33,007 bases of DNA from a virus. The translations under genes and the position numbers were made by a program. The notes below the pieces were generated by a model that saw nothing but the letters and a program-made list of their open reading frames with translations, ran no database searches and was not told where the DNA came from. Location: positions 1-33,007 of IMG/VR virus record IMGVR_UViG_3300048672_000599. One strand, written 5' to 3'. Shown here in pieces: positions 4,766-19,485 of the stretch. How positions within the stretch are numbered: the first letter of the stretch is position 1; every line of letters begins with the position of its first letter.

Positions 4766-5743
4766 ATGGCTATTCAAGCAGCAGATCACACATATAACGT
4801 AATCGGAACACGAGAAGACTTGTCCGATTTAATATCAAACATTTCACCTACTGATACCCCGTTCACGGCAATGTGCCGAAAAGGTCGCGCTAAATCGACA
4901 TTAGTCGAATGGCAAATTGACTCTTTGGCAGCAGCAGCCACTAACGCGCAACTTGAGGGTGATGTAGCGCCTAACGCGGCTTTTGCGGCTACAGTTCGCG
5001 CAACCAACAGATGCCAAATTTCAGCTAAACAGGTAACTACTTCTGGCACTGTTGAAGCTACAGATAAGGCCGGTAGAGCGTCAGAGCTGGCTTATCAGTT
5101 AAGCAAAAAGACTAAAGAAATAAAACGTGACGTTGAAGTTGCGCTATTAACCAACAACGTACAAACCACAGGCAACACAACCACTGCACGTACCGCAATG
5201 GGACTGGTTGGCTGGGTCGATGGGGGCGTTGCTTTCGGCGGCGCTGGCTCGGTAATTTCAACCGGTACAGGCGGCAACCAGCCATTATTTGCGGCTAACA
5301 CTGCACGTACAGCGGCAACCGCAGCATGGGCAGCATTAACGGAAGCTAACGTAACAACTATCTTGCAAAACGCTTACCTTGCTGGCGGTGCGGCTGACGT
5401 GCTAATGGCTGATGCAAAAACTCGGGCTACCATTTCCGGCTTTACTTCTGGCACTACTAAATTCACTGAAGCGGTCGACAAAAAGCTGGTGGCAACAGTA
5501 TCAATTTACGAGTCTGATTATGGCGTGCTCAAGATTGTAGCTAACAGATTCTTGCCGGTTACAGCCCAGGTTAAAGTTTGCTATGCGCTCCAATCAGACG
5601 GTTTTGAACTGGCTTTCTTACGTCCTTACTTCGTTAAAGACCTTGCATCCACTGGTGACTACGAAGCTAAAAGCATCACTGCCGAGTGGACTCTGAAGGT
5701 TGACAACAATGCCAGCCATGGGGCAGTTAGAGATATTCTTTAA
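4766..5743 (+). CDS. Major capsid protein, DUF5309/SU10-type (325 aa)
   Basis: The N-terminus 'GTREDLSDLISNISPTDTPFTAM' followed by 'EWQIDSLAAAATNAQLEGD', 'RCQISAKQVTTSGTVEATDKAG' and 'ELAYQLSKKTKEIKRDVEVALL' is the signature of the DUF5309/SU10 major capsid family, an HK97-fold coat protein. The length fits that family. It follows the scaffold gene, as in related phages, and precedes a small conserved head protein and the adaptor. It is the only gene in the region with a long leader and its own candidate promoter; a hairpin follows its stop. There is no N-terminal propeptide. Confidence 0.93.
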   Translation: MAIQAADHTYNVIGTREDLSDLISNISPTDTPFTAMCRKGRAKSTLVEWQIDSLAAAATNAQLEGDVAPNAAFAATVRATNRCQISAKQVTTSGTVEATDKAGRASELAYQLSKKTKEIKRDVEVALLTNNVQTTGNTTTARTAMGLVGWVDGGVAFGGAGSVISTGTGGNQPLFAANTARTAATAAWAALTEANVTTILQNAYLAGGAADVLMADAKTRATISGFTSGTTKFTEAVDKKLVATVSIYESDYGVLKIVANRFLPVTAQVKVCYALQSDGFELAFLRPYFVKDLASTGDYEAKSITAEWTLKVDNNASHGAVRDIL

Positions 5744-5826: not shown

Positions 5827-6156
5827 ATGGCAAGATTAAGAGCAGTACAAGCGGAAGTAGGCGGCGGCTTTACCCAAACCTTTCTTGACAGAGACAAGAT
5901 GGTAGAGCGCTTTATTCTGAACAATGATGAAATGATTCAGAATAACAGGCTAATAGCTAACGCCGGTCATAATGGCTTTAGCCAATCGGGCAACATGCGA
6001 GAGATCGCCAGGATTGACCCGGTAACGCAATTAAAGCTGTTGCAAGATCACAATATAGACCTTAACCGATGGAACGCTGACGACAAAAAAGGAATTGTCA
6101 AATGGCTGAGAAACCCAGACAACAGATTTTTTAAAACCTGTAGTGGGGCCATATAA
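5827..6156 (+). CDS. Small conserved head-region protein (109 aa)
   Basis: The protein has a basic N-terminus and then the pattern 'FILNNDEMIQNNRLIANAGHNG...MREIARIDPVTQLKLLQDHNIDLNRWNADDKKGIVKWLRNPDNRFFKT'. I recognise this arrangement (a short helix pair, a conserved I-P/D-P step, and a closing L.(N)DPD.R..(R/K)T) from small phage proteins encoded immediately after the capsid gene. Its exact role is not established to my knowledge. The stop overlaps the adaptor start (TAATG), implying translational coupling. Confidence 0.7.
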   Translation: MARLRAVQAEVGGGFTQTFLDRDKMVERFILNNDEMIQNNRLIANAGHNGFSQSGNMREIARIDPVTQLKLLQDHNIDLNRWNADDKKGIVKWLRNPDNRFFKTCSGAI

Positions 6157-6779
6157 TGGCTATCACTACGTATGACGAGCTTAAAACGGCCATAGCTTCA
6201 TGGTTGCACCGCTCAGACTTAGACACCATCATTCCCAGTTTTATAGCCCTTGCCGAGAGTAAAATTGGCTCTGGCTTTAGATCGCGTGAGCAGGAAACAT
6301 CGACAAACCTTGTTACTGTTGCCGGTGTTGAAACGGTAGCCCTTCCAGCCGACTATCACTCACTTAAAAGTATCCAGATCGTATCTAGCTTTAATTCCGT
6401 ATTGCGCCTTATGCCCGATGACGCGGCTTTGCGCTACAAAGAAACTAACACACTTGCACAGCCTGAATATTACACGATTCAAGGCAGCAACTTAAGGTTA
6501 AGCCTATGCCCCGATGCCGTTTATACCTTGGAAGTCATTTATTACGCAAAAGTACCGGCGCTATCAGGCGCAGCACAAACTAACTGGCTACTTACTAAGG
6601 CCCCGCAGCTTTACCTATATGGCGCGTTAATCGAGGCCATGCTTTACGTGCAAGACGATGAAAGGCTACAACTTTATGCGGGATTGTTCGACGTTGCGCT
6701 GAACGGCGTTATTGCCAGTTCCAATATTGAAAGTTACAGCGGCGCACCATTACGCGCCGTTTCAGATTATGTTTGCTAA
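6156..6779 (+). CDS. Head-tail adaptor protein, gp4/SU10-type (207 aa)
   Basis: Recognisable family features in order are: 'TYDELKTAIASWLHRSDLDTIIPSFIALAESKI' (residues 4-36), 'ALPADYHSLKSIQI', 'PEYYTIQGSNLRLSLCPDAVYTLEVIYYAKVPALS', and 'NWLLTKAPQLYLYGALIEAMLYVQDDERL'. This is the phage adaptor family that forms the ring beneath the portal in short-tailed phages. The gene is translationally coupled to the preceding head gene by a TAATG overlap and is followed by the tail fibre-like and nozzle-like genes, a typical podovirus order. Confidence 0.88.
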   Translation: MAITTYDELKTAIASWLHRSDLDTIIPSFIALAESKIGSGFRSREQETSTNLVTVAGVETVALPADYHSLKSIQIVSSFNSVLRLMPDDAALRYKETNTLAQPEYYTIQGSNLRLSLCPDAVYTLEVIYYAKVPALSGAAQTNWLLTKAPQLYLYGALIEAMLYVQDDERLQLYAGLFDVALNGVIASSNIESYSGAPLRAVSDYVC

Positions 6780-6788
6780 GGAAAAAAA

Positions 6789-7679
6789 ATGAGCATTGAA
6801 AGCGCAACTTACATCAACCAACTTGTAACAACTAATCCTGATGGAGCGGTAGACTACTTATCAACGGTAGACGATCATTTGCGGCTGATTAAAGCAACTC
6901 TACAAAATACATTCCCACAAGTTTCAGGTGTCGTTTCGGCTAGCCATACCAGCTTAAGTGCATTAGCTTATGTGGTTGACACCGGCACATTGAATGCGCT
7001 TGTATGCAATCCAACGTCAGCCTTTGCTGCATATGTAGCCGGAACAGGGATTACAGTTAAACCGATAAACACAAATACCGGAGCGGCAACCATCAATATT
7101 TCAGGTCTCGGCGCTGTTGCCATTAAAGATGCGGCGGGCCTTGCTCTGGTGGGCGGTGAATTGATAAGCGGTAACGTTTATACCTTGCGCTATAACGGAA
7201 CGTCATTTTTCATGGCTGACAGGTGCTTTGGCGCAATGACCAGTGCCGACATTAAAGGTGATGGCGCAGGCCATATCACTAACAATGTTGCTTTTACCGG
7301 CGCTCCGACAGTGACCACAGCCGGAACCTCCGATGACTCTACCAAGATAATTAACTCAGCCTGGGCAAAGCTGGGGCTGGCTTATTCTCTGGTAGCAACT
7401 CCAGGGTACTTTAAATTCCCAACGTGGGCAGGTGGCTTAATTATTCAGTGGGGCAGTGGCACAACATCGGGAGGAAATGCCCTGGCAACAATAAGCCATG
7501 CGATACCATTTTCAACAACATTTGTTACTGTTGCCGGGGTAAAATCCGGTAATGCGGCTATTGATTATAACGTATTTGCAAGTCAGGCGACGAACAATTC
7601 CGCGTCAATCTATGCCCGCACAGGCGCTGGGGCTAATGCAACCGGCGTTGATGTTTATTACATTGCAATAGGCATATAA
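6789..7679 (+). CDS. Tail fibre-like protein with gp53-like C-terminal domain (296 aa)
   Basis: The N-terminus 'SATYINQLVTTNPDGAVDYLSTVDDHLRLIKATLQNTFP' is a common attachment segment of phage tail fibre proteins. The middle is Thr/Ala/Gly-rich beta structure. The C-terminus (about residues 207-296) begins 'GYFKFPTWAGGLIIQWGSGTTSGG' and ends 'YYIAIGI', which matches the gp53-like C-terminal fold (knob) found at the tips of many fibres. It therefore probably contacts the host surface. The ATG follows taaggaaaaaa, a strong ribosome binding site. The next gene's ATG immediately follows its stop. Confidence 0.82.
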   Translation: MSIESATYINQLVTTNPDGAVDYLSTVDDHLRLIKATLQNTFPQVSGVVSASHTSLSALAYVVDTGTLNALVCNPTSAFAAYVAGTGITVKPINTNTGAATINISGLGAVAIKDAAGLALVGGELISGNVYTLRYNGTSFFMADRCFGAMTSADIKGDGAGHITNNVAFTGAPTVTTAGTSDDSTKIINSAWAKLGLAYSLVATPGYFKFPTWAGGLIIQWGSGTTSGGNALATISHAIPFSTTFVTVAGVKSGNAAIDYNVFASQATNNSASIYARTGAGANATGVDVYYIAIGI

Positions 7680-10600
7680 ATGTCAAAAATCGCCGCATTT
7701 AATAATGTAGGGTCTGCAGGGGTTATTCAGGATTTATCTCCAGAGAGGCTTCCAGCTAATGACGAAAATGGATTTGCTTGGTCTTCTATAGAAAATTGTC
7801 GGCCAAAATCTGGAGAAATAGCAAAAATACCTGGATATTCATCTCTATTTTCAACATCTATCGCCCCATGGGAGGTGGTGCAAGTTTTTGATGTCGATCA
7901 ACCTGTTTATTTTTACATGTCAGGGACTCAAATTTACTTATACAGGCAATTGCAACATTACAATATGACACGGGTACTGGCTGGTTGGAACACTATTAAT
8001 GTTGGCAGCAATAAAACAGGTAGCGATCTTCCATTTGCCGCTAACAAAGCAAAGGTAATTGTTGATGTTGGGGGTGGCAAGACTGGTGCATCAGCAACAG
8101 GCTGGATTAGCAATGCAACCAACCATCTTGGCAATCTTAAAATTGACGGTGTTGATTATCCTATCTCGATAACCGGCAGCGCAGCACAAACCTATACAAC
8201 CCTTATTTCTCAAATAAATACCGACATTGGGGCTGTAGCAACAGCATCACTTGATGGCAATGGCAATTTATTGTTTACGTGTGACGTAAGCACAGCAAAC
8301 GCAACCAGCATGGTTTTAACTGACACTGGCTCAGGCATTACCAGATCATGGGCGCTTTTGACTGGATATGTATCGATTGGCTCAGCGACAACGCACAATT
8401 TGTCAGCTACCGTCACTATCGATGGCGGCGCTCCGCAAACCTTGGCAACACAGTCGCTACAAAACGCCAACTACACAGATTTTATTGCTGGGCTTAATTC
8501 GCAATTTACGGGCGGGACACTGACTTTGACAGGTGGAAATTTACGCATTACAACAGCGGGAATTTTGAGGACAGCAAGTGTATCAATATCTGACACCAAC
8601 CTATTTAGTTCATTGACAGGCTATACATCGATAACCAACACGGCAACAGATGACATTCCCTATTCGACACCAACAACAAATAGTTGGAACACATCATTAT
8701 TAAACAATATTCCTGTTTTTAATAACGGGTTCGATGACCCTCAATATTGGCCTTCTCCAAGAGCAACTACAACTATGTTGCAAACGTTGCAAAACTGGCC
8801 GAATGGAACAAAATGCTTAATTATGAGGGCATTTAAAGCGTATTTAATTGCACTGAATATAACTGACGCTGGTGGGACTAGATACCCGTCTAAAGTAAAA
8901 TGGAGTGGTTCAGCACTCCCTGGAGCCTTGCCGACTACCTGGGATATTACGGATGTAACCGCAGATGCCGGTGAGCAGTCTTTAAGCGACTCGCTTGGGC
9001 AAATAGTTGATGCCTCTACATTAGGTAATGACCTAATAATTTATAAGCAAAATTCAACTTATAAAATGAGTTATGTAGGGGGGTCAAAAATATTTTCCAT
9101 ACAGATGCTATTTTCTGGCATAGGCGCATTATCCATGAATTGCTCAGTAGAAATAGGAAACCAACATTTTGTAGTGACCTCAGAAGATATAATTATTCAC
9201 AATGGTGCAGAATATAAAAGCATTATCGATGGGCGTAATAGAAAATGGTTTTTCAAAAATTTAAATCGAGCCTATTCATACAGAACTAGATGTGTTGTTA
9301 ATTATGATTCAACTGAGGTATGGGTATGTTATCCGAGCTCATCGAGTCAATACATTGATAGCGCATTAATCTATAATTATGAATCAAATGTTTGGTGTAA
9401 GCGCCAACTCCCAAGTATTTACAATATGTTTTCCGCTATTTTTGATGCGGGAGCCCCTCCTACAATCAACGGAAGCTCAGCCTTTAATGCACCAGCTCCT
9501 ACCTCCGCTTTAACAGTAAATGTTTTAGCATATGGGGCAATTGGCAACGGAATTACTGATGATACTGCGGCTATTCAATCAGCAATAAACGCTGTTCAAG
9601 GTTCGGGAGGAACAGTAATAATAGGTAATGGCACATATCTAGTTAACCCAGAGCAAGGGTCGAGTCTTGCAATTACTGGCGCAATGACATTGAAAATGTC
9701 AGATGGCGCAATTTTAAAAGCAAAGACTAGCAGTGCAACACATTACGATATTTTGCGGATTGAATCGGCGTCAAATGTAAATATTATCGGAGGCATATTG
9801 CAGGGTGAGCGATACACGCATATTGGGAGCACAGGAGAGTGGGGGTTTGGACTTGGTATTTATGCATCATCAAATGTTTATGTTGAAAATACGATAGCAA
9901 AAGACTGTTGGGGAGATGGATTCTATATTACGGATAATCATGGTATAGGTGGAAGCAACCCATCAACTAACATAACTTTAGACAACGTAACAGCAGATTA
10001 TTGTAGAAGGAATGGAATTTCTTTAATTTGTTCTAATGGTGTCCTTATCAAAGATAGTTTTCTAAAAAATACAGGCGGCACTAATCCACAATACGGGATA
10101 GACATAGAGCCGAATACAGGAGAATCAAATAATAATGTCGTTGTTGATAATTGTACTTTCATTAATAATGCTGCGGGCTCGCTTTCGGTTTTCGGACAAA
10201 ATAATACAAATTTAGTGGTTAACAACAATAAAATGTATGGTGGCACAGGAGGATACATATTATTAATAAGTGATGCTGATAACGGCATGTATTCAAACAA
10301 CATAATAACCTCAATATGGCGCGGTGTTGAATTTAGGGGAGCGACAACGGGAAACACACTATTAAATAATAATATCTGTGCTACTTCCTTAACAATATCA
10401 AATCTAGGAACTAATATTTCAACTGGAAATACGCTGTCAAATGGTTCTTGTACAGTAGGAGACCCAGCTGACGCGATTGCAATTATGCACGCTGGTGGTT
10501 CTGAGATAATAAATACAGCTAATAGAATTATTGATTATGATGCAAGTAGCAATACATCAAGGCGATTGTTTGCAGGTATCCCGGAAAATTTAGGTATTTT

Positions 10601-10958
10601 CATTTTTGATTCTGAAACTTCCGATACAGATAACGGCTCCGCTATGATAGCGCTAGTTGAACGCATTGATTTGCCGTTGGAGCCAGAACAGCTTATAAAA
10701 ACAGTTAAGAGAGTATGGGTTAGGGCAGGCTCTAGGATAAAATCGCCTTCTCCTTTGCAGGTTTATGTAGGCCATGCGATGAGAAAAAATGAACCAATAA
10801 CCTGGGATGGCCCATTTCTATTTAACATTTTATCAGATAATTACATAAACTGTTTTTCGACCGGAAGATATATATCAATAAGATTTAAATCAACGACAAA
10901 TACTGACTGGAATTTACAGGGTTTCGATCTTGAGTATGATACAAAAGGCCGATTTTGA
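7680..10958 (+). CDS. Tail nozzle-like protein with inserted beta-helix domain (1092 aa)
   Basis: Residues 1-590 follow a recognisable pattern of phage tail tube/nozzle-like proteins. Diagnostic parts are an early 'NCRPKSGEIAKIPGY', then 'VKWSGSALPGALPTTWD', 'GQIVDASTLGNDLIIYKQ', 'VTSEDIIIHNGAEYKSIIDGR' and 'NYESNVWCKRQLP'. About residues 612-925 switch to a right-handed parallel beta-helix, opening with the pectate-lyase-type 'AYGAIGNGITDDTAAIQSAI' motif and continuing with N-rich coils (VDNCTFINNAAGS, VVNNNKMYGGTGG). From about 926 the tail protein resumes and closes with 'GRYISIRFKSTTNTDWNLQG', the usual family ending. The helix domain thus seems inserted into a loop and could bind or cleave a surface polysaccharide. 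Catalytic residues cannot be assigned by eye. Confidence 0.82.
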   Translation: MSKIAAFNNVGSAGVIQDLSPERLPANDENGFAWSSIENCRPKSGEIAKIPGYSSLFSTSIAPWEVVQVFDVDQPVYFYMSGTQIYLYRQLQHYNMTRVLAGWNTINVGSNKTGSDLPFAANKAKVIVDVGGGKTGASATGWISNATNHLGNLKIDGVDYPISITGSAAQTYTTLISQINTDIGAVATASLDGNGNLLFTCDVSTANATSMVLTDTGSGITRSWALLTGYVSIGSATTHNLSATVTIDGGAPQTLATQSLQNANYTDFIAGLNSQFTGGTLTLTGGNLRITTAGILRTASVSISDTNLFSSLTGYTSITNTATDDIPYSTPTTNSWNTSLLNNIPVFNNGFDDPQYWPSPRATTTMLQTLQNWPNGTKCLIMRAFKAYLIALNITDAGGTRYPSKVKWSGSALPGALPTTWDITDVTADAGEQSLSDSLGQIVDASTLGNDLIIYKQNSTYKMSYVGGSKIFSIQMLFSGIGALSMNCSVEIGNQHFVVTSEDIIIHNGAEYKSIIDGRNRKWFFKNLNRAYSYRTRCVVNYDSTEVWVCYPSSSSQYIDSALIYNYESNVWCKRQLPSIYNMFSAIFDAGAPPTINGSSAFNAPAPTSALTVNVLAYGAIGNGITDDTAAIQSAINAVQGSGGTVIIGNGTYLVNPEQGSSLAITGAMTLKMSDGAILKAKTSSATHYDILRIESASNVNIIGGILQGERYTHIGSTGEWGFGLGIYASSNVYVENTIAKDCWGDGFYITDNHGIGGSNPSTNITLDNVTADYCRRNGISLICSNGVLIKDSFLKNTGGTNPQYGIDIEPNTGESNNNVVVDNCTFINNAAGSLSVFGQNNTNLVVNNNKMYGGTGGYILLISDADNGMYSNNIITSIWRGVEFRGATTGNTLLNNNICATSLTISNLGTNISTGNTLSNGSCTVGDPADAIAIMHAGGSEIINTANRIIDYDASSNTSRRLFAGIPENLGIFIFDSETSDTDNGSAMIALVERIDLPLEPEQLIKTVKRVWVRAGSRIKSPSPLQVYVGHAMRKNEPITWDGPFLFNILSDNYINCFSTGRYISIRFKSTTNTDWNLQGFDLEYDTKGRF

Positions 10959-11209
10959 TGATTGATTACACACCCTCTCCAGTTCCTACAGATACGGCAT
11001 CAATACCCTCCTATCTGAAAAATGAATTTAATAAAATTGCACTATGCTTACAGCATGGCCCGAATAATTTGATAAAAACTTATGTCGCACCTGACAAGCC
11101 GAGAGACGGAGACCTTAAATACTCGGATGGTGTGCACTGGAACCCCGGTTCTGGTGTCGGCATTTATTATTACAAGGCCAGCGCTTCAGCCTGGATATTT
11201 TTAGGATAA
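10958..11209 (+). CDS. Small conserved tail-region protein (83 aa)
   Basis: The sequence 'VPTDTASIPSYLKNEFNKIA' followed by 'YVAPDKPRDGDLKYSDGVHWNPGSG' and a closing 'GIYYYKASASAWIFLG' belongs to a family of small proteins common in podovirus tail clusters, right after the nozzle-type gene. The chosen start is the ATG at 10958, which overlaps the nozzle stop (TGATG); a TTG one codon upstream is also open but unneeded. The domain resembles small trimeric beta caps, but function is unknown. Confidence 0.75.
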   Translation: MIDYTPSPVPTDTASIPSYLKNEFNKIALCLQHGPNNLIKTYVAPDKPRDGDLKYSDGVHWNPGSGVGIYYYKASASAWIFLG

Positions 11210-11212
11210 ATT

Positions 11213-11911
11213 ATGGCACTATTACAACCGAATGGAATGACTAACCCTGGTGCCGGAGGCAGTGAAGTCTATAACTTAGGCCAGGGATACGTTTTTAAAC
11301 AAGGTGACGGCAGTTTTAGCAGGACATACGACCCAAACAGCCAGTTTACCGCCCCGATAGCGGAGACACCAGAACATGCAATGATGAAATATCAAAATCG
11401 CATGGCAGGGTATCAGCAGGGGCATGCTAAAGACTTGCAGCGTCAATTATTTGACTTATATTTTCCAAAGGGGCAGCAAAAGATAGATGGAAAAGACCAG
11501 CGCCCAGACATGCAAGCATTTATTGGCCAGCAAAAACAGCCAGGACAAAGGCAGCCAATTGACATACAAGCATTAATGCAGCAGATACAGCGCAGCGGGC
11601 TTGCAAGTCAAATGCAACCATTCCACAAACAAGCGCCAGTTTATATGCAGCACGCGGCAGACCCTAACGCCAACATTTACATGCAGAATGGCTCGCCGAT
11701 GACGATGATACCAGGGCAGGGCGGAGCATGGCAAAAGTCTTATGGGGTGCCATACAACCCAGGAACAAACCCTAATCCAACAGCGGTTGGGTTTAACCCT
11801 GCTTTGCCAAGATTAGCGCCAACTCCTGTACCTGTTGGCGGGGTTCCAAATAACCCGGCTAACGCATGGTCTGGGCAACGTATCGTAACACAGCCACTGA
11901 GGGTGGGGTAA
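11213..11911 (+). CDS. Gln/Pro-rich virion-region protein (232 aa)
   Basis: The protein is unusually rich in Gln, Pro, Met and Gly ('GQQKQPGQRQPIDIQALMQQIQRS', 'QNGSPMTMIPGQGGAWQK', 'GTNPNPTAVGFNPALPRLAPTP'), with little predicted globular structure after residue 90. No known domain is recognised. Its place in the row of internal/ejection protein genes suggests a packaged virion protein. The ATG follows taggataaatt. Its stop overlaps the next start by one base (TAATG). Confidence 0.65.
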   Translation: MALLQPNGMTNPGAGGSEVYNLGQGYVFKQGDGSFSRTYDPNSQFTAPIAETPEHAMMKYQNRMAGYQQGHAKDLQRQLFDLYFPKGQQKIDGKDQRPDMQAFIGQQKQPGQRQPIDIQALMQQIQRSGLASQMQPFHKQAPVYMQHAADPNANIYMQNGSPMTMIPGQGGAWQKSYGVPYNPGTNPNPTAVGFNPALPRLAPTPVPVGGVPNNPANAWSGQRIVTQPLRVG

Positions 11912-12675
11912 TGTCTAGCACTGGGCAAATGGGCATAAACGGCTCACAGCAACAAGGCAATTTTGGTGGTGTTGTTCCGGGCTATATGGGCGCATCAGAT
12001 ATACCAAGAAACATGGGCGCTAATAAAATTGGGGGTGTTCATGGCCCTATCCAGCAAGCCAGTCAAAATATAAACCAGCAAAATGGATTTACGCCATTCG
12101 ACTATCAACAAATTATGGGTTCAAAAGACCCTTATGTTCCAGGGATGCAATTTGGGGCTCAAATAAATCCCGGAACACAAGGCCATAATGGGCAAATAAG
12201 AGGACAGACCTTTAATACCGGCAATGGCTATAATCCATCAATAACAATCGGTCAAATGCAGCAAGAAAGCAATGCTGGAAATTTTCAACATTTACCCGAT
12301 TGGATGAATGGAATTTATCAAAATTACACGCCTTGGCTGTCACAAGATTCGCTTGCAAGTAACATGAACAGCGCACCAAAAAACGCAACAGCTGAGCTAT
12401 ATAAAGCAGTGATAGACTCTGGTGGTGGATTTGGTGGGCTTAACAACGATATTTTTAGGCAGGGGCTTGGCTATGCAGGCGCAGCAGATCATAGCGGGGG
12501 AGCAATGAGAAGAAACCCTGGTTTTGATTTTGGCGTAAACAGTGAAATTCCGACAAGGCTTAACCAATTGCAGCGTTATTTGTCGACTCAAGAAAATACA
12601 ATGGCCGCAAACGGAAGGCCAATAATGCCAGGACAGCAACCAGTAGCAGAATTGCAAAGAGGGTTATTTACATGA
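11911..12675 (+). CDS. Gly/Gln/Asn-rich virion-region protein (254 aa)
   Basis: I chose the ATG at 11911 because it overlaps the previous stop (TAATG) and is preceded by gagggtggggt; a GTG/ATG-type start 45 bases upstream would run inside the preceding gene. The N-terminal half is low-complexity Gly/Gln/Asn (GINGSQQQGNFGGVVPGYMG). The C-terminal half has a more ordered 'QQESNAGNFQHLPDWMNGIYQNYTPWLSQD' and 'TAELYKAVIDSGGGFGGLNNDIFRQGLGYAGA' segment. No recognised domain. Likely co-expressed with the following paralogous pair, whose first ATG overlaps its stop (ATGA). Confidence 0.62.
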   Translation: MSSTGQMGINGSQQQGNFGGVVPGYMGASDIPRNMGANKIGGVHGPIQQASQNINQQNGFTPFDYQQIMGSKDPYVPGMQFGAQINPGTQGHNGQIRGQTFNTGNGYNPSITIGQMQQESNAGNFQHLPDWMNGIYQNYTPWLSQDSLASNMNSAPKNATAELYKAVIDSGGGFGGLNNDIFRQGLGYAGAADHSGGAMRRNPGFDFGVNSEIPTRLNQLQRYLSTQENTMAANGRPIMPGQQPVAELQRGLFT

Positions 12676-13847
12676 GCAGCTTGGGAAATAGCGGAACGGT
12701 ATCCGGACAGACGCAGCAGGCGGGAACAGAAACGCAAACAAATAACCCGTGGGCCGCGTCAGTTCCGTATTTGGGCGACATATTAAGTGAGGCTCAGCGC
12801 TTAAATACGCTTGGCGGGCAATCTTATACGCCCTGGGGGCAGGTAGCAAACCAAACACAAGACCAAGCAGCATATCAAGCTGGCATTAGAGATTACGTAA
12901 ACGCACCGGGCACTCAAAAATTCATGAGCAGCGGAAGTGATGCCATTAAAAACCTGATGACTCAGGTTGGCAGCGGTGGAGCACTCGGGCAGGTTGGTAA
13001 TGCGGGGGCTGGAAAGCTAGCAGGATTGGTTACAAACAACAATCTTTATGACCCTGGGCAAGCAACTAACCAGATGATGTACGGAGACACCATAAACCCT
13101 TACTTGGGTAAAAATGTTGATGCTGCCCTGCAATCGCAGGTCCAGGGATTTAACATAAATACCCTTCCCGGACTGCGGCGTGAGGCCATCGGTGATGGCT
13201 CGTATGGCTCTACTCGAAACATGCAGACTGAGGGCATGGCAGCTGGAGCGCTCGATAAGCAAATGATGGACACTGCCGGCGGAATGTATCAGGATGCCTA
13301 TAATACAGCCGAGGGCAATCGAATTAACGCGCTTGGCATTGGTTCAGACCAAGCCATTACCCAGGCAAAACTTATCCAGCAAATTATGGATAATGCAAGC
13401 GCTAACAGCATGTCATCGTCAGGAGCTGCACTGGCTCATTTGCCGGGAATGATTAACGCGCCGCTTGACCTTTTAGCGGCTCAGAATACGGCTGGTGGCC
13501 AGCAATTCAATCAGAACCAGGCGCAGCTTGATGATGCTACTAACCGTTTTAATTTTGACCAGACTCAGCCTTGGGATTCCTTGTCAAAATTTGCAGCGAT
13601 CATAAATTCTCAGGCAGGGCTTGGCGGCTCAAGTGTTCAAACTGGATTTTCTACGATGCCGCAAGTGTCCGGAGCGGCTAACGCAGCAGGGCTTGGAACA
13701 AGTGCGCTTGGACTATTGCTTAGCATGTATGGAAAAGGCGACTCAACAGGCAGCGGCAACGGAAATATAAACCCAAACTACAATGTAAGCACAAAACAAG
13801 CAATCAGCAACTCAATTACTCCAACCTTTAAAGGTGCAAGCGTATGA
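12672..13847 (+). CDS. Virion/ejection-type protein, paralogue A (391 aa)
   Basis: The N-terminal block 'NPWAASVPYLGDILSEAQRLNTLGGQSYTPWGQVANQT' resembles a family of phage internal/tail-associated virion proteins with 'PYL..l...A..ly..G...Y.pg..va..' signatures. It shares this block, 'GIRDYVNAPGTQ', 'LAGLVTNNNLYDP' and 'LLAAQNTAGGQQFNQNQAQLDDATNRFNFDQTQPW' with the next gene, so the two arose by tandem duplication. The C-terminus has a short hydrophobic 'AAGLGTSALGLLLSMYG' segment that may contact membranes. ATG overlaps the previous stop and follows agagggttattt. Confidence 0.7.
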   Translation: MSSLGNSGTVSGQTQQAGTETQTNNPWAASVPYLGDILSEAQRLNTLGGQSYTPWGQVANQTQDQAAYQAGIRDYVNAPGTQKFMSSGSDAIKNLMTQVGSGGALGQVGNAGAGKLAGLVTNNNLYDPGQATNQMMYGDTINPYLGKNVDAALQSQVQGFNINTLPGLRREAIGDGSYGSTRNMQTEGMAAGALDKQMMDTAGGMYQDAYNTAEGNRINALGIGSDQAITQAKLIQQIMDNASANSMSSSGAALAHLPGMINAPLDLLAAQNTAGGQQFNQNQAQLDDATNRFNFDQTQPWDSLSKFAAIINSQAGLGGSSVQTGFSTMPQVSGAANAAGLGTSALGLLLSMYGKGDSTGSGNGNINPNYNVSTKQAISNSITPTFKGASV

Positions 13848-14893
13848 CCGCGCAAGTTCCAGCGACAACAAGCAGCACAGTTCAACAGGCTCCATGGGCT
13901 GGATTAATTCCGTATCTTGGCTCTAACATGAGCGAGGCGCAGCGGCTTTATAACCTTGGCAATCAAGCATACACACCGTGGGGACAGGTAGCGAATCAGA
14001 CACCCGACCAGATTGCGGCATTAAGGGGCATACGCGATTACGTTAACGCACCCGGAACTCAAGGCTTACTTCAGTCTCAATCAGGGCTTGTTAGCGGGTT
14101 GCTGAGCGGTAATGCTGGCTATAACCCGCAAATGCAGATAGGTGGGATGGGCGCGCCAAAGCTTGCAGGGTTTGTTAGCAATAATACGCTTGCTGACCCA
14201 ACATCTGGTCTCAACCGGATGATGTACCAGAATACAACAGACCCGTCTTTAGTAGCAAATATTGGGCAAGCTTTAGATTCAGTAGGAAAAAACCTTGCAA
14301 GCGCGCATGGTGTGCAGGGCTTTGGCGCACAAATAGCAGAAAATGCACACGCCTTAAATCAACAAAATGCCGTAAACAGTCTTTTTGGCCATGCTTATGA
14401 TACTCAGCAAACAAACAAATTAAAAGGCATACAGTTAAGCAATAACTGGCAAAATAACCAAGCTGGAATGATTGCAGACCTGCTTAATTCCGGCGATAGA
14501 AATAAGTTGCAATCAGTTGAGCAGGGCTTAAGCGGGTTCGATTCAGCATTAAAGACGCCGCTTTCATTGCTCGCGGCACAAGGGGCGGCTGGCGATCAAC
14601 AGCAGGCGTATAATCAGGCGCAATTAACTGACGCAACGAATAGATTTAGCTTCGATCAAGCGCAGCCTTGGCAAAATTTAGCTAGATACAGCGATTTAGT
14701 ATCGCCAATAGCATCAATGGGGAAAACAGTAACTAATATTAATACTGCCCCACCAGTGCAGCAGGGCAATAAATTAATGGGTGCAGCAGGAGGGTTAATG
14801 GCAGGCGCAGGCGCAGGTGCAAGCGTTGGTGGGCCTTGGGGCGCTGTAATTGGAGGCGCAGCTGGTGCAGCAATGGGCTACTTTTCAAAATAA
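13844..14893 (+). CDS. Virion/ejection-type protein, paralogue B with glycine zipper (349 aa)
   Basis: This is a paralogue of the preceding gene: 'LIPYLGSNMSEAQRLYNLGNQAYTPWGQVANQTPDQIA', 'GIRDYVNAPGTQ', 'LAGFVSNNTLADP' and 'SLLAAQGAAGDQQQAYNQAQLTDATNRFSFDQAQPW' all align. Its C-terminus (about residues 310-349) is different: a Gly/Ala zipper of small residues (AAGGLMAGAGAGASVGG, then VIGGAAGAAMGYF), typical of membrane-inserting phage ejection proteins. It overlaps its neighbour by 4 bases. A role in forming a DNA channel through the host envelope is inference from this zipper and the context. Confidence 0.72.
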   Translation: MTAQVPATTSSTVQQAPWAGLIPYLGSNMSEAQRLYNLGNQAYTPWGQVANQTPDQIAALRGIRDYVNAPGTQGLLQSQSGLVSGLLSGNAGYNPQMQIGGMGAPKLAGFVSNNTLADPTSGLNRMMYQNTTDPSLVANIGQALDSVGKNLASAHGVQGFGAQIAENAHALNQQNAVNSLFGHAYDTQQTNKLKGIQLSNNWQNNQAGMIADLLNSGDRNKLQSVEQGLSGFDSALKTPLSLLAAQGAAGDQQQAYNQAQLTDATNRFSFDQAQPWQNLARYSDLVSPIASMGKTVTNINTAPPVQQGNKLMGAAGGLMAGAGAGASVGGPWGAVIGGAAGAAMGYFSK

Positions 14894-17079: not shown

Positions 17080-19485
17080 ATGGACAATAAGCGAAAATTT
17101 TTACTCGATTTTTTTACTTCTAAAGGGCTTGAGCCACATCAGGCCGCCGGTATTGTTGGCAACCTAGAAGGCGAGTCCAGCCTAGACCCATCCGCTATAG
17201 GTGATGGAGGCACATCGGGAGGACTCGCCCAGTGGCATAATACCAGATTAACCGGGCTAAACAAGTTTGCCTTTAAAAATAACTCTGATGCTAATGATAT
17301 AAGCACGCAAGCCGACTATTTGTGGCATGAGCTTAATACTACCCATAAATCGGCCCTGGATGCGTTAAAGTCTTCCACTGACGTGGCCACAGCTACACAA
17401 GCATTTACTGACAAGTTCGAGCGCCCCAAAGCGCCAGATTACGCCAAGCGGACGAGCCTTGCAGAGAAAGCGCTTAATCTCATTATCCCAACGGCTCAAG
17501 CTGACGAAACTATCCCGGCTAACGCTGGCGAGATAATCTATGCTGATACCTATGCTGACGCTGTAAAGGCGCAAACAGACAACCCGAGCGCCCAGGTTTT
17601 CATAAAAGAAGGTGTTACGGCGGATGTCGAGACACCGGCAGAAAGCGGGATAGCAGATGAGACAGACATAAGCCCAAACAAATCATTATTAAAGGGAATA
17701 GTAAGTGGAGCAACGCTTAATTCCGGCGATGAAATAGACGCGACAGCCTATGCGCTAAGGGATTTATTAAAAGGCGGGCAGGGCGACTTTAACACCAATT
17801 ACAAATTCTACCGTGACCGCGCAAGACAAGCGAATACAGAAGCGGAGGCGGCTAACCCGTCAGCCTACTCAATTGGAAATGTAGCCGGTTCATTTGCTGT
17901 ACCAATGCCCGGCGCGAGCTTAAAAAACATCCCTGGACTCATGAAGGCAAGCGCCATGATTGGAGGCGCATCAGCGCTTGGCGCGTCAACAAAAGAAGAT
18001 TTGCCAGGAATTTTGACCGATACGCTGGGCGGTGCTGGAGAATCGGCAGCAATTGGCTTTGGCCTTGGCGCGGCAGGAAGAGGGTTAGCAAAGGCTGGCG
18101 GCGGTATTGCCGACATGATGGCAAGTGTAGCTGGAAAAAATACACCAACATTGGACAAGGCGGCAAGCCTGGGGATCCCGGTAACTAATATTGACCGCTG
18201 GATGAACTCGGCAAGTCCTAGAGTGCGCGGCTTTGGCAATATGGTAAATGACACGGTTGATAACCTGCCGTTCATTCACAACAAAGAGGCAAGAATCGGT
18301 CAGGCTGAAGCGCTCGGAAAAGCGGCCTCCAAGTTAGAAACAAACATTAAGCCTGGAGTCTTGGATACCGGCCCCGCAGTGCTTGAGTCAATGACGCAAA
18401 AAATGAAGGAAGGAAAAAGTCACGTTAAGGCGTTGTATGACAAAGTCAAGAATATTGCTGATAATACGCCGGATATAGCACCGATAATCCCGGTTAAGAC
18501 TAAAGCTTCCGTTAGTGAATTGATGGATAAAACAGACTTTTTAAAAAGATTCCCGGACTCAAAAATAGAATCATTTTTTAAAAGGATTCAGGATGGCGGC
18601 GCTGACGAAGCGTTGACTTTTGATGACGCAAGGGCGCTTAAATCAATGGTTGGTCAGTATTCGCGCCGGGCCAAGAAATCATCTGGCATGTTAGGAGACA
18701 ATGATTACCGATTACTCACCCAAGTTCAAAATTCAGTTAATCAGGACGTTAATAAATGGGCTACGGATAGCGGAAATACTAAATTGCTTGATGCGCTAAG
18801 AAAAGCCGACAAAGCCAATATTGAAAAGGTAGTGCCGTACAAGGAAAATGAATTTTTAAAACAATTTAATTCCGGCAAGATCAACAGTGACAAGGTTATA
18901 AAAAAGGTAGTTGGAGGCGATGCGGTAGGGCCTTTGCAGACAAAAACATTTACCGATGCCATGGGTAAGGCTAGCGATGGGAAAAGTGGTGTTGACTATG
19001 TCAAGCATCAGATAGTAGCGGATGCCAGATCAAAGGCAATTGATGCAGACGGCAATTTTCATCCGATAAAGTTTGCCGCCGCGTTAGATAAAATTGGCAG
19101 CGAAAAAAGCGACATAATCTTTAAGAATGTTGGCGGCAGATCGCAGTCGGAAGCGGCGAAGATTCAAGCAGAAGTTAAAGGGATTAGGGATGTATCCAGA
19201 GTTATTGGCCTGTCAGTGTCGAAAGCCATGGCTGACCCGACTAACGGCAACAAGCTTGTCAGACTATTGGTTGGCACTGGCAGCATTGCGGCTACAGGGG
19301 CAACCGGAATATTGCCTGGGGTAGCGACTGGTATTATCCTTAACAAGTTTTTAACTGACCCAAAATACACAGGTCATTTTATCCGCGCAGGACTCGCAAA
19401 AGGCGGTGCTGCGACTAATCGTTACGCCGATGAAATGGTGAAACTTTTTATTAAAAATGAATCAATGAGGAAACGTAATGATTGA
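17080..19485 (+). CDS. Ejection protein with N-terminal tail lysozyme domain (801 aa)
   Basis: Residues 1-135 form a phage tail lysozyme domain (Phage_lysozyme2): 'FFTSKGLEPHQAAGIVGNLEGESSLDP', 'GTSGGLAQWHNTRL', 'ADYLWHELNTTHKSALDALK', 'FTDKFERPKAPDYAKR'. The Glu in NLEGES is the probable catalytic acid. The middle (about 200-350) has Gly/Ala-rich hydrophobic stretches (IGGASALGAST, AIGFGLGAAGRGLA) able to touch membranes, and the rest is long helical charged sequence. The C-terminus has another hydrophobic stretch (GSIAATGATGILPGVATGI). It is the functional analogue of a T7 gp16-type ejection protein that makes a hole in peptidoglycan as DNA enters. It is the last gene of the virion block. 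Confidence 0.85.
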   Translation: MDNKRKFLLDFFTSKGLEPHQAAGIVGNLEGESSLDPSAIGDGGTSGGLAQWHNTRLTGLNKFAFKNNSDANDISTQADYLWHELNTTHKSALDALKSSTDVATATQAFTDKFERPKAPDYAKRTSLAEKALNLIIPTAQADETIPANAGEIIYADTYADAVKAQTDNPSAQVFIKEGVTADVETPAESGIADETDISPNKSLLKGIVSGATLNSGDEIDATAYALRDLLKGGQGDFNTNYKFYRDRARQANTEAEAANPSAYSIGNVAGSFAVPMPGASLKNIPGLMKASAMIGGASALGASTKEDLPGILTDTLGGAGESAAIGFGLGAAGRGLAKAGGGIADMMASVAGKNTPTLDKAASLGIPVTNIDRWMNSASPRVRGFGNMVNDTVDNLPFIHNKEARIGQAEALGKAASKLETNIKPGVLDTGPAVLESMTQKMKEGKSHVKALYDKVKNIADNTPDIAPIIPVKTKASVSELMDKTDFLKRFPDSKIESFFKRIQDGGADEALTFDDARALKSMVGQYSRRAKKSSGMLGDNDYRLLTQVQNSVNQDVNKWATDSGNTKLLDALRKADKANIEKVVPYKENEFLKQFNSGKINSDKVIKKVVGGDAVGPLQTKTFTDAMGKASDGKSGVDYVKHQIVADARSKAIDADGNFHPIKFAAALDKIGSEKSDIIFKNVGGRSQSEAAKIQAEVKGIRDVSRVIGLSVSKAMADPTNGNKLVRLLVGTGSIAATGATGILPGVATGIILNKFLTDPKYTGHFIRAGLAKGGAATNRYADEMVKLFIKNESMRKRND

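Follow-up and report, generated by a model that had tools for sequence, protein, structure and literature searches.

The window analysed here, a single stretch of 33,007 bases, is an entire virus record (IMGVR_UViG_3300048672_000599). Genes for a major capsid protein, a tail adaptor, a tail fibre and a tail nozzle lie in this order, which fits a SU10-like short-tailed phage (Table 1). No other fibre gene was recognised by the family searches in this genome, and the nozzle ORF is intact and encodes 1092 amino acids. Downstream, two adjoining genes (12672-13847 and 13844-14893) both match the DNA ejection protein family phrog_4287; each also matches the other's copy in a related phage at 37-39% identity, and they are probably paralogues. 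Further on, 17080-19485 encodes an 801-residue protein with an N-terminal Phage_lysozyme2 domain (PF18013, 3e-34), likely a peptidoglycan-cutting virion protein.

Table 1. Features of the tail gene region, with positions in the window. L095 denotes the nozzle of the sibling phage described in the text.
Feature	Position	Strand	Basis or remark
SU10-type major capsid protein	4766..5743	+	PF17236 E 2e-80
SU10-type tail adaptor protein	6156..6779	+	PF24175 E 2e-35
Tail fibre gene, 296 aa; conserved dock-binding N-terminus (V27 before DDHLRLIK), Gp53-like C-terminus	6789..7679	+	
Tail nozzle gene with two inserted modules	7680..10958	+	phrog_3287 E 1e-105; 9nwi_Y E 1e-68; Foldseek 9nwi_Y E 4e-30, TM 0.85 of target
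Nozzle N-terminal side, residues 1-600: platform and beta-propeller, including the ~93-326 insertion	7680..9479	+	73% identical to L095, ungapped
Separate insertion, residues ~93-326	7956..8657	+	Gap in short nozzles; low model confidence; common to sibling
Dock anchor 1, I596, before the insert	9465..9467	+	Aligns with the first Trp of other docks; Tyr596 in sibling
Insert of 340 aa, residues 601-940, missing from the sibling nozzle	9480..10499	+	Alignment to L095
Right-handed beta-helix domain, residues ~612-921	9513..10442	+	Pfam/PHROG; AlphaFold2 alone pLDDT 86.3, pTM 0.89; Foldseek
Conserved polar residues of the helix family: E720, D746, R776, R777, D808, E810	9837..10109	+	Invariant in 10 relatives
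Nozzle C-terminal side, residues 941-1092	10500..10955	+	66% identical to L095; within the nozzle fold in the model
Dock anchors 2 and 3, I943 and I950, after the insert	10506..10529	+	Align with L603 and I610 of sibling; register of W-x6-W-x6-W

At the sequence level, residues 328-589 and 963-1089 of the nozzle gene product matched, in order, a single solved nozzle chain (9nwi_Y), which Foldseek names as part of the tail of Pseudomonas phage Pa223. The first of these segments also matched the nozzle of Vibrio phage VP1 and, more weakly, that of SU10. In the AlphaFold2 model of the full-length protein, residues 340-580 and 980-1090 mostly scored above 90 and the helix mostly 75-95, figures on which one misplaced row of the alignment, a distant helix (L171), should have had little effect as the remaining rows took their expected places. 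Confidence was low in both linkers (590-601 and 922-958), so the model does not predict where the helix is placed. Foldseek aligned this model over the whole Pa223 nozzle; the flanks thus form one domain, as a preliminary description of this DNA had proposed. The N- and C-terminal parts are homologous to nozzles, the model has a platform-plus-propeller fold that includes the C-terminal part, and the gene follows those for adaptor and fibre. The product belongs to the tail nozzles of the Pa223/SU10/VP1 type, and a right-handed beta-helix that folds on its own interrupts it.

The exact extent of the interruption was read from a sibling phage in IMG/VR, IMGVR_UViG_3300021438_000047 (L095; also L094), whose nozzle of 752 residues is collinear with that of the window. 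The two align with a single gap of 340 residues and no other indel, which places the insert at residues 601-940, each edge being ambiguous by a few residues. The helix-free homologue that the preliminary description had asked to be compared thus yielded the boundaries. The limits given in that description (residues 612-925, bases 9450-10460) were nearly right for the folded helix, and the whole insert comprises residues 601-940 (9480-10499).

Elsewhere the two phages are close, with identities of 96% for the terminase, 98% for the capsid protein, 98% for the adaptor, 95% for the 801-residue virion protein and 86% for the fibre. Divergence is highest at the nozzle and the next two genes. These two, at 10955-11911, are only 66% and 41% identical between the phages while the remaining genome is mostly at 80-98%, which suggests from sequence comparison a local hot spot of change. 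As a separate observation, the sibling contig (G001; L322/L323) carries a terminal overlap of 149 bases that is 99.3% identical. The overlap makes it probable that this genome is complete and circularly permuted; the window covers nearly the same circle.

A gene of this kind could also arise if an assembler had joined a beta-helix fragment of another phage into a nozzle gene. The junction is present in one record only, DNA searches for the left junction and for a stretch of the helix gave no second copy, and the relatives of the helix are located in unrelated phages, all of which a chimera would explain. However, both junctions are in frame and lie in one homologous loop with every flanking residue kept, in trinucleotide composition the insert resembles an average stretch of the genome (58th percentile), and the searches found no helix relative closer than 46-48% identity that might have been misjoined. 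Because of the in-frame ends, the homologous loop and the average composition, we consider a misjoin, which the preliminary description had named as a possible source of error, very unlikely.

The N-terminal flank is itself not uninterrupted. Residues 1-590 had been described as one continuous nozzle, which is only partly right: short nozzles have nothing that corresponds to residues ~93-326, a second and separate insertion. It probably sits near the place of the Ig-like nozzle domains of SU10. Searches with residues 91-330 gave no convincing match in Pfam and no match in the PDB. An internal duplication within this insertion was considered and rejected, as its score did not rise above that of shuffled sequences (18 of 200 shuffles reached it).

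The existence of a beta-helix within a nozzle-like protein, the core of the preliminary description, was borne out. Residues 601-926 matched beta-helix families (PF13229, 8e-8; PF12708, 3e-6; PHROG tail spike, 3e-21) and folded into such a domain when modelled alone (Table 1). Foldseek matches of the isolated helix included a Geobacillus virus protein, the polysaccharide lyase RbmB, AlgE epimerases (AlgE4), viral spikes, phage depolymerases and the adhesin PfbA, the nearest being mostly enzymes or phage spikes. Its closest relatives, 46-48% identical, are a domain of an 883-residue tail protein in another phage (L002/L003) and a domain of a 526-residue secreted-looking protein (L004); no relative of the window capsid protein was found on their contigs, which may be fragments. 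More distant relatives occur in tail spikes and tail proteins of Vibrio, Corynebacterium, Bacillus and crAss-like phages, among them crAss001 gp22, whose structure is solved. The gene of the secreted-looking protein (L004:5386-6963) adds an N-terminal hydrophobic stretch, a TP-rich linker and an FnIII-like domain to the helix module, and judging by these features its product is possibly a secreted glycan-active protein encoded on a phage contig.

In an alignment of 10 diverse phage helices, Glu120, Asp146, Arg176, Arg177, Asp208 and Glu210 were invariant, and all are kept in the window (Table 1). In the model they lie at the edges of seemingly equivalent strands in four successive turns, as read from the strand table and not from measured geometry; this looks like the arrangement expected for a groove along one face. 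The helix is most likely a polysaccharide-active enzyme, a binding domain being the second choice. That it would act on polysaccharide is supported by the family and the conserved polar residues; catalysis, substrate and oligomeric state are inferred.

Phage depolymerase helices normally act as trimers, and such modules are usually carried on separate, exchangeable trimeric spikes. The helix described here shares with depolymerase tailspikes the right-handed parallel fold and the conserved acidic residues of a putative active site, but, unlike them, it is not a spike in its own right, equipped with parts for anchoring to the virion and for trimerisation, and no trimerisation domain is indicated for it. 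Since it is internal to the nozzle and has linkers on both sides, we do not file it as a tailspike. It may work as a monomer or pair with neighbouring helices. In a second reading, the helix is a non-catalytic adhesin that reversibly anchors the phage to surface glycan without cutting it. A built-in monomer may lack the intersubunit sites used by some trimeric depolymerases, and beta-helix adhesins exist, PfbA being among the fold matches. Yet the helix retains every acid and arginine that does not vary among the tail proteins of unrelated phages, a pattern that resembles an active site rather than a binding face free to vary, and the nearest fold matches are mostly enzymes or phage spikes. 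We regard an adhesin as the less probable role, though one with some weight.

The same conserved residues speak against a purely structural function, in which the helix would be a collar or spacer stiffening the fibre base. Other nozzles do bear structural insertions, for example the Ig-like domains of SU10 (PMC9509320). A stiffening element is however at odds with the two linkers that flank the helix, which the model gives with low confidence and which are probably flexible, and with polar residues that are conserved across the family, and we think such a role very unlikely.

The place of the insert within the nozzle gives the putative enzyme its particular context. SU10 clamps its trimeric short tail fibre with a loop at blade 1 of the propeller of its nozzle, using Trp839, Trp847 and Trp857, and at infection this dock loop and the fibre swing by 135 degrees (PMC9509320). 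We located the dock loop in the SU10 gp17 sequence and the corresponding segment in related nozzles. The nozzles compared form a large though not exhaustive sample, drawn from the best 80 loci of each scan, and a strongly divergent helix in an equally divergent nozzle would escape it. Among the matches listed, the dock segment measures 36-75 residues in 234 of 235 unique nozzles and 400 residues in the window. Three Trp occupy the dock in 211 of these 235 listed nozzles and three aromatic residues in 230. The three-Trp loop is thus common in the family and not universal, and because 24 of the 235 nozzles lack the pattern, its absence from the window marks a variant of the dock and does not exclude membership of the family.

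The sibling carries Tyr596, Leu603 and Ile610 at these places, in the 7-residue register of the dock Trp. In the window nozzle I596 takes the first place, and the second and third were assigned to I943 and I950 through this one sibling rather than through a solved dock. I596 precedes the insert and I943 and I950 come after it, so the helix is positioned between anchors 1 and 2, and the dock itself, as far as the alignment tells, appears to be kept. Both the dock-loop site and the preservation of the dock-binding end of the fibre gene go beyond what the preliminary description contained.

The N-terminus of the window fibre is the same docking end as that of Clew-3 and of SU10 gp16, and the fibre residue directly before the DDH motif (Gly27 of SU10 by position) varies with the dock. 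Among 123 nozzle-fibre pairs this residue was Gly in 108 of 108 with three-Trp docks and other than Gly in 15 of 15 with other docks, raw counts that overstate the co-variation as the sequences are related. It was mostly Ala or Ser with Phe/Tyr docks and Leu or Val with Ile docks. When switches of dock and fibre were placed on a tree, all seven independent switches were concordant (two-sided p 0.016), one Salmonella phage with three widely spaced Trp being scored as a Trp dock in this run; an earlier run with fewer sequences gave five concordant switches out of six and none opposed. With its Ile anchors and Val27 (codon 6867-6869), the window belongs to the Ile-dock/Val class and obeys the rule, which lends indirect support to the view that fibre and dock still meet in this phage.

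This evidence also bears on a different outcome of the insertion, namely that the helix destroyed the dock, that the fibre is seated elsewhere and that the helix is the sole receptor-binding part on the nozzle. Such a loss would agree with the disappearance of all canonical dock Trp, which are gone in the window and the sibling. However, the sibling has no helix and is without Trp all the same, yet it keeps the fibre. Moreover, Ile occupies all three dock places in other nozzles too (for example L264), and such docks with 7-residue spacing (L264/L336, L338) are paired with a fibre Leu, like the Val here. We therefore rate a replaced dock as improbable.

Taken together, we think it probable that the window encodes the nozzle of a small SU10/Pa223-like phage in which a mobile beta-helix was inserted into the fibre-clamp loop, setting six putative polysaccharide-active domains at the fibre bases. 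The nozzle would be a hexamer by analogy to SU10. The inserted module lies between the first and second of three fibre-anchor residues, and with one dock per subunit, six helices on flexible linkers would surround the tail at the six fibre bases. They could meet surface glycan as the fibres bind, and would bind and probably cleave, or otherwise modify, host surface polysaccharide, clearing a path for the short tail. Upon fibre rotation the helices would swing towards the cell, provided that the dock moves as it does in SU10. We are about evenly divided on a fuller proposal: a composite dock in which a depolymerase-type helix sits between the clamp anchors while the fibre is still docked, so that one fibre and one sugar-active domain per subunit move together, combined with a size rule for fibre-nozzle pairing that holds across these phages (Trp with Gly, Phe/Tyr with Ala/Ser, Ile with Leu/Val).

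Here a sugar-active module would be built covalently into the tail core that conducts the DNA, at the clamp of the fibre, and the helix-free sibling offers a natural comparison. It becomes testable whether a beta-helix enzyme can work outside a trimer and how sugar-active domains are gained by phages that need no new part to attach them, and the size rule provides a way to predict which fibres suit which nozzles in the family.

Searches for precedents gave no phage protein with both parts among 655 phage records (best coverage 42%), and none of the 50 matches listed from a viral structure library extends past the nozzle share of the query (TM of query ≤0.42). Two candidates were rejected as nozzle-plus-helix proteins: Salmonella phage PKM.Hi.22.6 (H38), whose match reached residue 690, has a 567-residue nozzle without helix, and an Anaerolineae match (L333) is a pair of epimerase-like helix proteins without nozzle. 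No depolymerase inserted into a nozzle was found in the papers searched.

Among known systems, the sibling is the nearest. It shares the fibre gene and the ~93-326 insertion, and it differs in the absence of the helix and in its anchor residues. Both flanks align over the 512-residue nozzle of Pa223 (PDB 9nwi, chain Y) by sequence and fold, but that chain has no room for an inserted beta-helix. Clew-3, a Pa223-related phage, has the same order of adaptor, fibre and nozzle genes, whereas its dock loop is short and bears three Trp. The SU10 nozzle gp17 and short tail fibre gp16 (PDB 7z47) belong to the same families, the nozzle by sequence and fold, with the same dock loop site and a homologous fibre N-terminus, and gp17 also contains inserted domains. 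In contrast to the window, these are Ig-like domains between blades 2 and 3, and the dock loop with W839, W847 and W857 is uninterrupted (PMC9509320). The helix module and its conserved residues recur in other phages (L002/L003, L004, crAss001 gp22 (PDB 7qoj), SPO1-like and phi674 tail proteins), but there the module belongs to a tail or secreted-looking protein in its own right and not to a nozzle. For a core tail protein with polysaccharide-degrading activity, the dual-function tail tubular protein TTPA of Klebsiella phage KP32 has been reported; it is a tail tubular A protein, and the paper mentions no beta-helix (PMC5440376). What was not found in the papers and collections searched is the combination, a nozzle whose fibre dock holds a helix of the spike type; its ingredients have precedents in nozzle insertions (the Ig-like domains of SU10), in polysaccharide activity of the core tail (KP32 TTPA) and in the helix module on spikes.
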